A DNA stretch of 64,000 nucleotides from Propionispora vibrioides. Lineage in GTDB: Bacteria > Bacillota > Negativicutes > Propionisporales > Propionisporaceae. The stretch lies in the NCBI RefSeq assembly GCF_900110485.1, contig NZ_FODY01000004.1, positions 1 to 64,000 of the forward strand. Direction: 5' to 3'. Of the stretch, positions 27,184 through 53,299 are shown one piece after another (position 1 is the first letter of the stretch; the number at the start of each line of letters is the position of its first letter). A program made the translations under genes and the position numbers. The notes beneath the pieces were generated by a model that was not told where the DNA came from, ran no database searches, and was given only the letters and a program-made list of their open reading frames with translations.

Positions 27184-28215
27184 CTAACACCGACATAGAT
27201 CGCGGATTGCCAGAGCCGCCGCTTCATCCAGTACCAGTACATCCTGCCGTCCGGCCCGGACTACCGCCACAATCGCCTCGGCCTTATCCCGGCCGCCGGC
27301 AACGGCAATCACCGTACCAACTCCCGATAAATCCTCCAACCGGAGACCGACACTGTTAGTCACATAGACCGGTTTGCCCTCCAGCGTGCAATAATGCCCC
27401 AACGTTTCGCCAACAGCACCGCGGCGTAAGATTTCCTGCACGGTCTGTTTATCCAGTCCGCGGCGCAGGGCCATTTTTTCCGCCCGGCCAATACTATGGA
27501 CCAGAATATCCGCTTTTTTAATCATCTGCGCTACCGCCGGCAAATTGGAGTCACTGGTTAGGATAGCTTCCGCCACCTGTTCGCTGACCACTTCCGGCAC
27601 ATGCAACAAGCGGTAACTGCCGCCCAGTTTGGCAGCCATTCTGGCTGCGATGGTATTAGCCTGGTACTCCATTTTTTCACCCAGACCGCCCCGGGCCGCC
27701 ACTACCGTTGTCGTCGGCTGCTTGACGTAAATGCCTTCGGCAATCATCGCCATGGTTGAACCACCACTAACCGCAATGGTTATGTGATCTTTCAGATATT
27801 CTGCCAGCACACCGGCTGCCACCCGGCCCAGCTCACGCTGCACCATCGGTTCGGTGTCACTGTCACCGGGGATGACGATCACTCGTTTGATACCCAGCTT
27901 TTGCGATAATTCCTGTTCCAGCGAAGAGAATCCGTGCAACAGACGCACATATTCGCCAATGTCCTGCAGGCTGGCTTCCCCTTCCGGCGTCACCCGCATG
28001 CCCATCAGCGAAAATTCAACCATTCCTGCTTCTTTAAGAAAATCCACCTGGACCCGGACCGCCCGTTCGCCAATGCCCAGTATACCGGCCAGCGCCCGAC
28101 GGCCAATCGGCTCATTATAGCGGATGTTACGCAGAATGTTGTACCGATCTTCCATCGTATGTATTAAATCAGGAGCAAATTTGCGATGCAGTTGCACAAT
28201 TTTTTCCAAGGCCAT
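27184..28215 (-). CDS. cggR: Central glycolytic genes regulator CggR
   Basis: CggR represses the glycolytic operon and is released by fructose 1,6-bisphosphate. The 343-aa protein has an N-terminal DNA-binding part (RYNILRNIRYNEPIGRRALAG...LGIGERAVRVQVDFLKEAGMV, about residues 25-75) and a SorC-type sugar-phosphate domain (ITIAVSGGSTMAMIAEGI near 150, GGDKAEAIVAV-like GGRDKAEAIVAV near 315). ATG at 28215 fits the family N-terminus and has GGAGGGG just upstream. An earlier ATG at 28272 would read through the operator and is rejected. It is the first gene of the operon it controls. Confidence 0.95.
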   Translation of the reverse strand: MALEKIVQLHRKFAPDLIHTMEDRYNILRNIRYNEPIGRRALAGILGIGERAVRVQVDFLKEAGMVEFSLMGMRVTPEGEASLQDIGEYVRLLHGFSSLEQELSQKLGIKRVIVIPGDSDTEPMVQRELGRVAAGVLAEYLKDHITIAVSGGSTMAMIAEGIYVKQPTTTVVAARGGLGEKMEYQANTIAARMAAKLGGSYRLLHVPEVVSEQVAEAILTSDSNLPAVAQMIKKADILVHSIGRAEKMALRRGLDKQTVQEILRRGAVGETLGHYCTLEGKPVYVTNSVGLRLEDLSGVGTVIAVAGGRDKAEAIVAVVRAGRQDVLVLDEAAALAIRDLCRC

Positions 28216-28223
28216 GTCCCCTC

Positions 28224-28261
28224 CGGGACGTTTTGTGTCCCATAGGGGAATAATGCGTCCC
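28224..28261 (-). promoter_or_regulatory. CggR operator
   Basis: The plus strand reads CGGGAC-N6-TGTC, four bases, then AGGGGA-N6-CGTC. This matches the known CggR double site (CGGGAC-N6-TGTC repeated after four bases) exactly in the first half and closely in the second. It sits between the likely promoter and the ribosome binding site of cggR. Confidence 0.85.
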
Positions 28262-28439
28262 ATCATTATCAAAAAAATTTATCCAACCACATTTTCCATA
28301 GTATAACTTTTTCTCTTCACTTATGATCATTTCGCCATAAACTTAGCAAATCCTTCTTGTTTAAACAAAATTTTATGAGGAATCGCTACTATTTTTTCCT
28401 GGATTTCCTGGCTTTATGCAAGCAAACTGCAACAAAAGC

Positions 28440-33239: not shown

Positions 33240-34745
<1,506 letters not shown>

Positions 34746-34834: not shown

Positions 34835-35563
34835 TTAGATAAGACCAATGGCCTTAGCAAATACATAGGCAATTGCAGCACCAACGAACGGTCCTACAAC
34901 CGGTACCCAGGCATAACCCCAATCGGAAGAACCTTTACCGGCAATCGGCAAAATAGCATGGGCAATACGAGGTCCCAGGTCACGGGCAGGGTTCATAGCA
35001 TAACCGGTAGGTCCGCCGAGGCTCAAGCCAAGAGCAAAGATTACCATGCCTGCCAGGTAAGGTCCAACTCCCGGAGGGATAGCTCCCACTGCCGGAGAGA
35101 ACAGAGCAAAGAAGCTGAACATCAACATAAAGGTAGCAATAATTTCTGTGAGAAGATTTGCTTTCAAGTCCCGAACAGCCGGGCCAGTAGCAAATACGCC
35201 TAATTTGAGACCGGGATCTTCAGTAATTTCCCAGTGCGGCAGGTAAGCCAGCCAAACAACAACCGATCCGGCAATAGCGCCAACCGTCTGTACTACCATC
35301 GTCATGATCGCCTGATCCAGGGTATAAATTCCGCCTCTCAGATATTTAGCCAACGTAACCGCGCAGTTTAAGTCCGCTTGCGGAGCACCAAGGGATACAG
35401 CAGTGAAAACACCAGCAAATACAGCAAGAGCCCAGCCTGTGGTTATAACAATCCACCCGCTGCCTTGACCTTTGGAGTCTTTGAGTAACACATTTGCAAC
35501 AACGCCTGCACCAAAAACAATCAGCACTGCAGTTCCAAGGAATTCGCCTAACAAGTTAGTCAT
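34835..35563 (-). CDS. glpF: Glycerol uptake facilitator (aquaglyceroporin)
   Basis: Membrane channel of the MIP family that lets glycerol diffuse in. The 242-aa protein has six hydrophobic segments and the two pore loops: an N-terminal half loop in which LGAPQADLNCAVT replaces the usual NPA-centred stretch, and the C-terminal NPARDLGPRI. The first canonical NPA motif is not seen in its usual form (AD-L-N-C-A-V), which is unusual. ATG at 35563 has GAGGAGG upstream. First gene of glpFK; its leader holds a GlpP-type attenuator. Confidence 0.9.
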   Translation of the reverse strand: MTNLLGEFLGTAVLIVFGAGVVANVLLKDSKGQGSGWIVITTGWALAVFAGVFTAVSLGAPQADLNCAVTLAKYLRGGIYTLDQAIMTMVVQTVGAIAGSVVVWLAYLPHWEITEDPGLKLGVFATGPAVRDLKANLLTEIIATFMLMFSFFALFSPAVGAIPPGVGPYLAGMVIFALGLSLGGPTGYAMNPARDLGPRIAHAILPIAGKGSSDWGYAWVPVVGPFVGAAIAYVFAKAIGLI

Positions 35564-35789: not shown

Positions 35790-35862
35790 GAAAAAAGAAA
35801 TCCGAAAAATAAGCATGGCATAACCAAACTATTTTTCGGACTTCTCTAGCACTCTAGCGTCC
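35790..35862 (-). promoter_or_regulatory. GlpP-type attenuator in the glpFK leader
   Basis: On the minus strand AGAAGTCCGAAAAATA pairs with TATTTTTCGGATTTCT followed by a T run, a strong terminator about 230 bases before glpF. The 25-base box at 35838-35862 (GGAC-N3-AGAG-N4-AGAGAAGTCC) overlaps its left arm and is shared with the glpABC leader at 32979-33003. This supports control of both operons by the same antiterminator, presumably GlpP. Confidence 0.75.
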
Positions 35863-35885
35863 CAGATATTAATATTGGTTCATAC

Positions 35886-36015
35886 GCTGAACAAACGTTC
35901 AGCCTTCCGGTCCTGCTTTTCTCCTGAACACATCAAAATACACAAATGACATTTTTCTACTTAAAAATGTCCATTCTGCTTCATTTTTCACAGATTTCTT
36001 TTGAACAAACGTTCC
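35886..36015. promoter_or_regulatory. Two operator-like palindromes upstream of glpFK
   Basis: GCTGAACAAACGTTCAGC (35886-35903) is a palindrome around a four-base centre; TGAACAAACGTTCC (36002-36015) is a second copy 114 bases away. The first overlaps a possible -35 (TTGTTC, 17 bases before TAATAT) for the glpFK leader. A separate 9-bp-arm hairpin lies between them at 35948-35971. The binding protein is unknown. Confidence 0.5.
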
Positions 36016-36130
36016 AATGACTATTTTTTATTTTGGGAGAAAGCATTTTTTCAATACTAAGATTATTCTGTATACACTTTTAAATTCCTGCTTGAATTTT
36101 AAAAAAATTATAATTTTTTTATTTCCTTAC

Positions 36131-36348: not shown

Positions 36349-36948
36349 TTATAGGCCCCTGTCAGGGTAAGTGAAGTTCCACAACTCCCGTTTACTTGTG
36401 CTGACAGCATAGACACCATTATTAATCGCTCCAATGACTTCCTCTTCGGTTTGCATAAGCCCACCGGCCAAAATAGGCCGACCAACTTCAGACAACAAGC
36501 GTTGGACAACCACGCGTGGCACCATTCCCGGCAATACTTCAATGGCATCCGGTTTAAGGGCCTTCGCCGCTTGTATTCCTGTACGTACAGCCTCGGAGTC
36601 CATCAAAAACAGCCGCTGAATAACAATCATACCGTCTTCATGAGCCATTTTGCCAATTTGCGTTTTGGTGGTGATAACAGCCGAGACTCCCTGACGGGCC
36701 AAAAAATTAATACCCGGTTTATCTCTCCCAATTCCCTCCAGTAAATCCAGGTGTAAGATCAACCGTTTTTTGTACTGTTTAGCCTGTTCCAATAGACTTG
36801 ACACCGTATTAATATCCCCGAACAGTACAATAACTCCCGGAGCTGCGGTATTTGACATGGCGTACTTAAAATCCTGAATTGTACGAACTGCCGGAATAAT
36901 AGGTCCATTGACAATCGTCTTTAAAATTCCAGGAACCTGCAATCCCAT
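36349..36948 (-). CDS. glpP: Glycerol-3-phosphate-responsive antiterminator GlpP
   Basis: GlpP senses glycerol 3-phosphate and prevents termination in glycerol operon leaders by binding RNA. The protein (199 aa from this start) is a TIM-barrel-like member of the family: PIIPAVRTIQDF near the N-terminus, LILHLDLLEGIGRD near residue 62, IQRLFLMDSEA near 112, IEVLPGMVPRVV near 138 and the phosphate-site GRPILAGGLMQTEEE. ATG at 36948 gives a family-like start though GAGGGG lies directly against it; an ATG at 36978 without a ribosome binding site is the alternative. Its likely targets are the two attenuators at 32933-33003 and 35790-35862. Confidence 0.92.
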   Translation of the reverse strand: MGLQVPGILKTIVNGPIIPAVRTIQDFKYAMSNTAAPGVIVLFGDINTVSSLLEQAKQYKKRLILHLDLLEGIGRDKPGINFLARQGVSAVITTKTQIGKMAHEDGMIVIQRLFLMDSEAVRTGIQAAKALKPDAIEVLPGMVPRVVVQRLLSEVGRPILAGGLMQTEEEVIGAINNGVYAVSTSKRELWNFTYPDRGL

Positions 36949-37154
36949 CCCCTCACATTCCTTCTTTTGTAATAACATAATGTGACAATAATAAATATGA
37001 TTATTATGACGTTATTACACCCTTTCTCCAAAGGTGCACATTTTTCCTGCCGTCAGTATTTCTATTTTTCATTTTCTGCCCTCAATTGAGTGAATATACT
37101 GATAAATAACTGAGAATGATTACATATAAAGGAAAAGTTCTTTGATAAAACGTC

Positions 37155-39737: not shown

Positions 39738-40068
39738 ATTCCATGTATCCCAGGCTTTTGAAAGAGAGTCTGCCACATATCTCATTTTTTGTATGTCTAG
39801 CGGCAATAACCTGACCTCCTTTTGGCATTGCCCCAAAAGGAGCAAAAGGGCTAGGCCTGTCCTCCAACATACTTGAAAAATTGCCATCTTCCTAAAATCC
39901 GTAAACTCGCTTCGCTCAAACAAACGGATTTCTTAACGGAAGCTGGCAGTTTTTCATCCTACGGAACGTATGTTTCCGGAAAAGGCCGAACGGGGAAACG
40001 AAAGATCCTCCCACCATTTCCTATCATGACAGTTCCTCATTTATTTCCCTAGCAAATTTAGTAAACTC
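39738..40068. other. Gap with repeat-like sequence, no gene
   Basis: About 330 bases between dhaM and ilvB. It contains TTTTGGCATTGCCCCAAAAGGAG (partly self-complementary) and AAATCCGT/ACGGATTT arms at 39893-39932 around CTCGCTTCGCTC. An open frame on the minus strand at 39711-39923 (beginning MFERSEF) arises from this palindrome-rich sequence and has no ribosome binding site; I do not regard it as a gene. It looks like a dispersed palindromic repeat. Confidence 0.4.
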
Positions 40069-52601: not shown

Positions 52602-53222
52602 TCACAGAGCCGGCACGGGTTCCGGCCGGTTGTGAGCAATACCGTACAGATAAATCTGCAAGGCTTGTTTGACATACTCGCTGTTGATCCCGGCCGGCAA
52701 GGGAGTCAGCTTACTGACCAGGGGTTTGCTAATAAAGTAGAAATTCAAAATGCCCACGAACGCTATGGCGGCATAGGTAATATCCACCTCCGACCGCAAA
52801 CTGCCACCGTCTATTCCCTCTTGCAGCGTTGCCAGCACAAACTGATACACCTGGGAAAGATGTTTTTCAATTACCTCGCTGCCATAATCGGTCGGATTAT
52901 TCACTTCAGCCATCATAAACCGGACCAAAAACGGCCGTGCAGCGTGGATATGAAAGACCTGCTCGGCATAAAAACTGAGCCGTTCGATCGGCGAAGTCAG
53001 TTCCTCACTCTGCGCCAAATCAAGAGCCTGCCGGATGGGAACAAACTGTTCCTCCAACACCGCCTGGTACAGGCCGCCCTTACCGTTAAAATGATAGGAA
53101 ACGGCCGACACGTTCATTGCCGCCGCATCGGTTACATCCCGGACGGAAACCCCGGCAAAGCCCTTGGTGGCAAACAGCGGCGTAGCTATTTCAATCAATT
53201 TACATTTGCATTCGCTTCGCAT
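52602..53222 (-). CDS. TetR/AcrR-family transcriptional regulator
   Basis: The 206-aa protein has an N-terminal TetR helix-turn-helix (LIEIATPLFATKGFAGVSVRDVTDAAAMNVSAVSYHFNGKGGLY, residues about 7-52) and a ligand domain resembling the CecR/YbiH group (DUF1956), known to control efflux genes. ATG at 53222 with AAGGAG upstream is used; a TTG just before is in frame. First gene of tetR-emrA-emrB. A 26-bp perfect palindrome at 53248-53273 in its promoter is the likely operator, so it should repress its own operon. Confidence 0.92.
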   Translation of the reverse strand: MRSECKCKLIEIATPLFATKGFAGVSVRDVTDAAAMNVSAVSYHFNGKGGLYQAVLEEQFVPIRQALDLAQSEELTSPIERLSFYAEQVFHIHAARPFLVRFMMAEVNNPTDYGSEVIEKHLSQVYQFVLATLQEGIDGGSLRSEVDITYAAIAFVGILNFYFISKPLVSKLTPLPAGINSEYVKQALQIYLYGIAHNRPEPVPAL

Positions 53223-53247
53223 CAAATCTACTCCTTATAGTTTACAG

Positions 53248-53299
53248 CATTAAAACAAACGTTTGTTTTAATGTAGCACTATTTGTCAGCCCTTGTCAA
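53248..53299 (-). promoter_or_regulatory. Promoter and TetR operator of the efflux operon
   Basis: A perfect 26-bp palindrome whose half site is CATTAAAACAAAC spans 53248-53273. TTGACA (53294-53299) and TACATT with extended TG (53270-53275) form a promoter with 18-base spacing, so the palindrome covers the -10 box and start point. Confidence 0.85.

Follow-up and report, generated by a model that had tools for sequence, protein, structure and literature searches.

Two dyads sharing a 13-mer before the glpFK leader of Propionispora vibrioides as candidate operators of a repressor other than LexA

The glpP-glpF intergenic region of Propionispora vibrioides carries two dyads that share an identical 13-mer. 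We propose tentatively, from sequence comparison, that these boxes are putative operators at which a dimeric (or tetrameric) protein distinct from LexA, perhaps one of the SorC/DeoR type, would act as repressor. Three observations carry the proposal: the identity of the two boxes, their persistence in one congener and their resemblance to dyads that lie beside a SorC-type gene in another. Within the window, by which we mean the whole 64,000-nucleotide stretch analysed here, TGAACAAACGTTC occurs at 35888-35900 (next base A) and at 36002-36014 (next base C), 114 bases from start to start. These copies, exactly two, fall within the 785 bp that separate glpP from glpF, which confirms the first-pass annotation in its placing of two motif copies 114 bases apart before the glpFK leader. 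Each box is a dyad with the core GAAC-N4-GTTC, and no strand is assigned to either. Box 1 reads GCTGAAC-AAAC-GTTCAGC and extends from 35886 to 35903, with its core GAACAAACGTTC at 35889-35900; box 2, which is TGAACAAACGTTC at 36002-36014, has its core at 36003-36014. The wider dyad TGAA-N6-TTCA is present in box 1; box 2 ends in GTTCC and has a single T flank. Beside GAAC stands T in three of the four half-sites and G in the remaining one.

No further TGAACAAACGTTC site was found in the 64-kb window at up to two mismatches, and the 11 additional matches have three mismatches each. Two of the 29 GAACNNNNGTTC sites in the genome (4,433,598 bases) have the 12-mer GAACAAACGTTC; both are the glp boxes, and the 4.43 Mb hold no third copy. 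As a control we generated 20,000 sequences from a first-order Markov model of this 785-bp gap. At least one GAACNNNNGTTC site arose in 147 of them and two arose in none. A genome search for the motif had been suggested in the first-pass annotation as a way to the regulator, and a lack of both further copies and conservation was to count as refutation. This applies by half: the search returned no other exact copy, but the pair is kept in one of two congeners.

The genes around the boxes are encoded on the minus strand: glpP (36349-36978, glycerol-3-phosphate responsive antiterminator, PF04309), glpF (34835-35563, glycerol facilitator, PF00230) and glpK (33240-34742, glycerol kinase, PF00370 and PF02782), the last named by its FGGY domains and its position. 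In B. subtilis the glp operons are controlled by GlpP through antitermination, and glpP beside glpFK together with a leader terminator is found there as here; in this genome two extra dyads lie upstream of the terminator. The terminator-like hairpin of the glpFK leader (35796-35845, minus strand) folds with a z-score of -6.0 and is preceded by GGACGCTAGAG (35862-35852), a stretch that is conserved in the genus in a three-congener alignment and is presumably the GlpP target. There are two promoter candidates, both on the minus strand. P_A, GCAGGA-N16-AGAATA at 36064-36091, lies upstream of both boxes and is kept in this genome and in both congeners; counted from its predicted start site, the boxes would stand at about +45 and +160. 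P_B, TTGTTC-17-TAATAT at 35866-35894, has its -35 (35894-35889) inside box 1 and its -10 at 35871-35866. It was not listed by a consensus promoter scan and not aligned in G002 in the congener alignment, and P_A is the better conserved of the two. As had been stated before, a possible -35 falls within box 1, but TTGTTC belongs to a weak candidate with 7 of 12 consensus bases. The pattern GCAGGA-N12..22-AGAATA occurs 23 times in the genome, where the reversed control has 4 sites, and the site at 36064-36091 may form a promoter class of its own with the 22 others. Between the boxes, a GACATTTTT/AAAAATGTC hairpin can be drawn at 35940-35980 on the minus strand (z -4.5, and -2.6 in G001). A small gene in the same interval was considered, but in an informal comparison by eye of the short frames of this genome and G001 none was convincingly kept in frame. 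A 60-aa frame on the plus strand, at 36017, starts just after box 2.

For the question of conservation this genome (G000) was compared with two congeners, G001 and G002, the latter rated 8% contaminated, and with one further genome (G003). In G001, whose GlpF is 100% identical, both dyads are present at the same 114-base spacing. The 12-bp core of box 2 is identical there. Box 1 keeps its arms around a changed spacer, and its symmetry reaches a seventh, outermost pair, in which both sides have changed (G:C to A:T). None of the 16 arm positions has changed, against 30 differing positions out of the 166 between 35880 and 36045. Since 6% of the arm pairs that the stretch offers (733 of 11,628) are equally conserved in G001, the arms taken by themselves would lend weak support to the operator reading. 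G002 retains glpP, P_A and the terminator region without either box, and none of its 39 GAACNNNNGTTC sites lies before glpF; the glpF locus of G003 has no GAACNNNNGTTC site. Among 80 named glpF loci, many of them from Negativicutes, up to 900 upstream bases (just 739 in L064) contained one relaxed distant match only, at -771 in L135.

In G002, two T-flanked dyads, TGAACTTTAGTTCA and TGAACATTTGTTCA, lie 20 bases apart at L182:2000-2033 (C18:64602-64633), between a SorC-type regulator gene (sugar-binding domain PF04198) and divergent aldolase and triosephosphate isomerase genes. Box 1 has 12 to 13 of 14 bases in common with them. From their position we tentatively assign these dyads to the SorC protein, with the contamination of G002 in mind. 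Among 219 loci, TGAAC-N4-GTTCA was found in box 1 (of this genome and of G001), in L025, in L029 and twice in L182; the L025 copy forms a longer inverted repeat ahead of a long gene, and the L029 copy lies inside a frame. The DeoR protein of B. subtilis is described, in the excerpted text of PMC11229326, as a SorC-family repressor that binds as a tetramer to paired half-operators, the left half being ATTGAACAAAATTTCAAT. This half operator has 12 of 14 core bases in common with box 1 and 11 of 14 with box 2; as a control, the L211 lexA box shares 13 of 14 with each glp box and the dinB box 11 of 14 with box 1. Box 1 has the TGAAC flanks of SorC/DeoR operators on both sides and box 2 on one, and the sites are likewise paired; the DeoR pair falls within 39 bp, the G002 dyads are 20 bases apart and the glp boxes 114. 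A tblastn search with the G002 SorC protein against the examined loci of this genome and G001 matched that protein itself only, and neither the surroundings of glp nor these loci yielded a gene for a matching regulator.

If the proposal is right, the repressor would recognise TGAAC-N4-GTTCA and would add to the control by GlpP antitermination in lowering the transcription of glpFK. SorC/DeoR, a family of sugar-phosphate sensors, would be the one to look in first. A repressor at box 1 would cover the -35 of P_B. With P_A as the promoter it would instead stand in the path of the polymerase at both boxes, perhaps bridging the two sites, and GlpP would still decide on read-through once the polymerase had passed. 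The binding of a protein, its identity, the promoter used and the signal sensed are what we infer here. The earlier suggestion of a repressor besides GlpP remains the best fit to two dyads whose arms and spacing are unchanged in a diverging stretch, although conservation in the one close congener is statistically weak and the overlapped -35 belongs to a weak promoter candidate. The operators had also been called unknown, and this has to be softened: the motif type is not wholly new, as it has the core of the LexA box and, in its T-flanked form, looks like an operator of the SorC/DeoR family.

Behind a non-LexA repressor we place LexA, then chance and last hairpins in the leader RNA. LexA comes after the other repressor because of the T-flanked pair beside the SorC gene in L182. 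It is doubtful that the dyads are weak LexA (SOS) operators lowering glpFK transcription in undamaged cells; DNA damage would then release glpFK through RecA-triggered self-cleavage of LexA, the weak sites early, with GlpP still needed for read-through. The Gram-positive LexA box (Cheo box) is given as CGAACRNRYGTTYC with the core GAAC-N4-GTTC in an excerpt of PMC2248561, and the 12-bp core of the glp boxes agrees with it, falls under GAAC-N4-GTTY and likewise has a spacer with a purine first and a pyrimidine last. Both lexA and recA are present in the genome and both are boxed. The same core precedes SOS genes here, at 19 bases from dinB and at 177 from the called start of a second Y-family polymerase, where it also lies within a 101-aa predicted frame. 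The lexA gene, divergent to a LysM protein gene that we name here as of yneA type, has three boxes 28 bases apart, two of them with a mismatch to the search pattern, and the recA box is GAACAGATGTTT; before these two genes the core takes the form GAAC-N4-GTTT. For the lexA weights we used 31 loci of the class (30 plus L175), 27 of them with a total of 44 boxes (36 distinct) and 4 boxless by pattern; lexA was found in 86 of 100 genomes. The core scores 16.4 for both boxes of this genome against 15.8-17.6 for four comparison sites, and the 12-mer GAACAAACGTTC also stands in one lexA promoter, L211, which belongs to the training set. By central tetramer the glp boxes come fourth and fifth of 29 genome sites (1.97, behind three at 3.19, with the next at 0.75), and the spacer AAAC is 14th of 256 tetramers in the lexA-promoter weighting. 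However, the box 1 spacer of G001 is just 30th of 256, and good central bases fail to separate LexA from the SorC-side dyads of G002. The flanks also speak against LexA: C or A adjoins GAAC in 46 of the 50 half-sites from lexA promoters of the class and in every half-site of the 13 SOS boxes known from the genus matrix, but in none of the four glp half-sites, where the prevailing T is atypical of LexA. Over 16 bp the boxes score 11.4 and 11.0 (10.2 and 11.0 in G001), below the weakest left-out lexA box at 12.2. A genus matrix, built on the 13 boxes, several of them orthologous, gives them 10.3 and 8.4, compared with 15.7-20.5 for 12 of the 13 and 9.8 for the remaining one; random DNA of genome size contains 192 sites at 10 or above, 350 at 9 or above and 550 at 8 or above. 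A first reading of the sites as perfect LexA boxes was weakened by these genus-matrix scores and the flank bases. In C. difficile, LexA failed to bind stably at the TGAAC-flanked sites of soj, rplR and rpoB and at that of potC (TGGAAC-GTTCAG), although tcdA, which is TGAAC-flanked, and several sites with a G flank were bound. In Synechocystis, LexA represses a glycerol kinase operon, slr1670-glpK, as would be the case here (PMC4759255); the abstract suggests that this LexA takes no part in the SOS response. The usual target of LexA/DinR is repair, that of the glp boxes glycerol uptake. That glpFK was drawn into the SOS regulon in two sister Negativicutes species, so that uptake would need both damage and glycerol-3-phosphate, a two-input switch that G002 is without, we regard as quite improbable.

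We think it unlikely that the dyads bind nothing and that the pair is a relic inherited by two sister species without function. The low full-matrix LexA scores would fit such a history, as would the occurrence of the pair in two close genomes only and the number of arm pairs that are equally conserved in G001; moreover, the pair was picked by eye from 64 kb, and a similar good-looking box at 39964 lay in an interspersed repeat. Against chance stand the lack of two dyads in any simulated gap, the 13 exact bases common to both copies, and the spacing and arm positions that are unchanged in G001. Very unlikely, in our judgement, is a role at the RNA level, in which the P_A leader would include both motifs and the dyads would act as hairpins, either as binding sites or as attenuator parts. 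P_A is indeed the better conserved promoter, box 1 gives a 7-pair hairpin in this genome and in G001 (z -3.0 and -3.1) with a paired change from G:C to A:U and a changed loop, and the whole leader folds well (z -5.8 and -5.1). However, these strong leader z-scores include the terminator, and G002 is without both boxes. Box 2 folds poorly (z -0.6 and -0.3), and a hairpin therefore cannot explain the shared 13-mer.

Should the repressor reading be true, glpFK in this lineage would have two layers of control, at initiation and at antitermination. The upper layer would have been gained recently, being seen in two congeners and not found in the third, and would offer a case for how an operon changes its regulators. 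Should LexA be the protein, an anaerobe would couple its carbon uptake to DNA damage. Boxes that bind nothing would show how far the core motif alone can overcall SOS genes. The type of gene control would be lineage-specific and otherwise ordinary, either protein reading amounting to a new target or a new site set of known control. None of the literature matches listed described glpFK as controlled by LexA or SorC in Firmicutes or Negativicutes.

Two regulators encoded in the window were considered for the boxes and rejected. CggR (27184-28272), a SorC-family protein, has GGGAC repeats upstream and no TGAA-N6-TTCA. These repeats, which lie where the cggR frame begins (28180-28270, minus strand), resemble the B. 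subtilis CggR operator; the start of cggR has probably been called too far upstream. The second, a TetR-family protein (52602-53225) whose gene precedes HlyD and MFS efflux genes, was dismissed on the centre of its dyad: ATTAAAACAAACGTTTGTTTTAAT at 53249-53272 has AACAAACGTT in common with the boxes but is centred differently. ATTAAAACAAACGTTTGTTTTAAT is a perfect 24-bp palindrome 24 bases before the called TetR-family frame, its 14-bp centre recurs exactly in G001 (C8:89540), and it is a probable operator of this TetR-family protein. In the genus-matrix scan the best match of the window was this palindrome, at 53253 (14.3), and not a glp box. A third LexA box was at first supposed at 39964, where GAACGTATGTTT lies between the frames of dhaM and ilvB; it was discarded as part of an interspersed repeat. 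With the same flanks it recurs at C5:115207 and C20:22672. The repeat, at about 39890-39990 of the window and near 1501 in L035 and L039, has at least three genome copies and carries GAACGTATGTTT as a false LexA box. Outside the window, a gene of about 200 aa is found in three congeners with a LexA-type box, GAACATACGTTC or GAACATATGTTC, 1-20 bases before the called frame (L007:1501-2135, at G000:C4:145270; L176:2001-2632 in G001; L180:2001-2625 in G002). Neither Pfam (L007) nor NCBIfam (L007 and L180) gave a match for this gene, which is a candidate new SOS gene.
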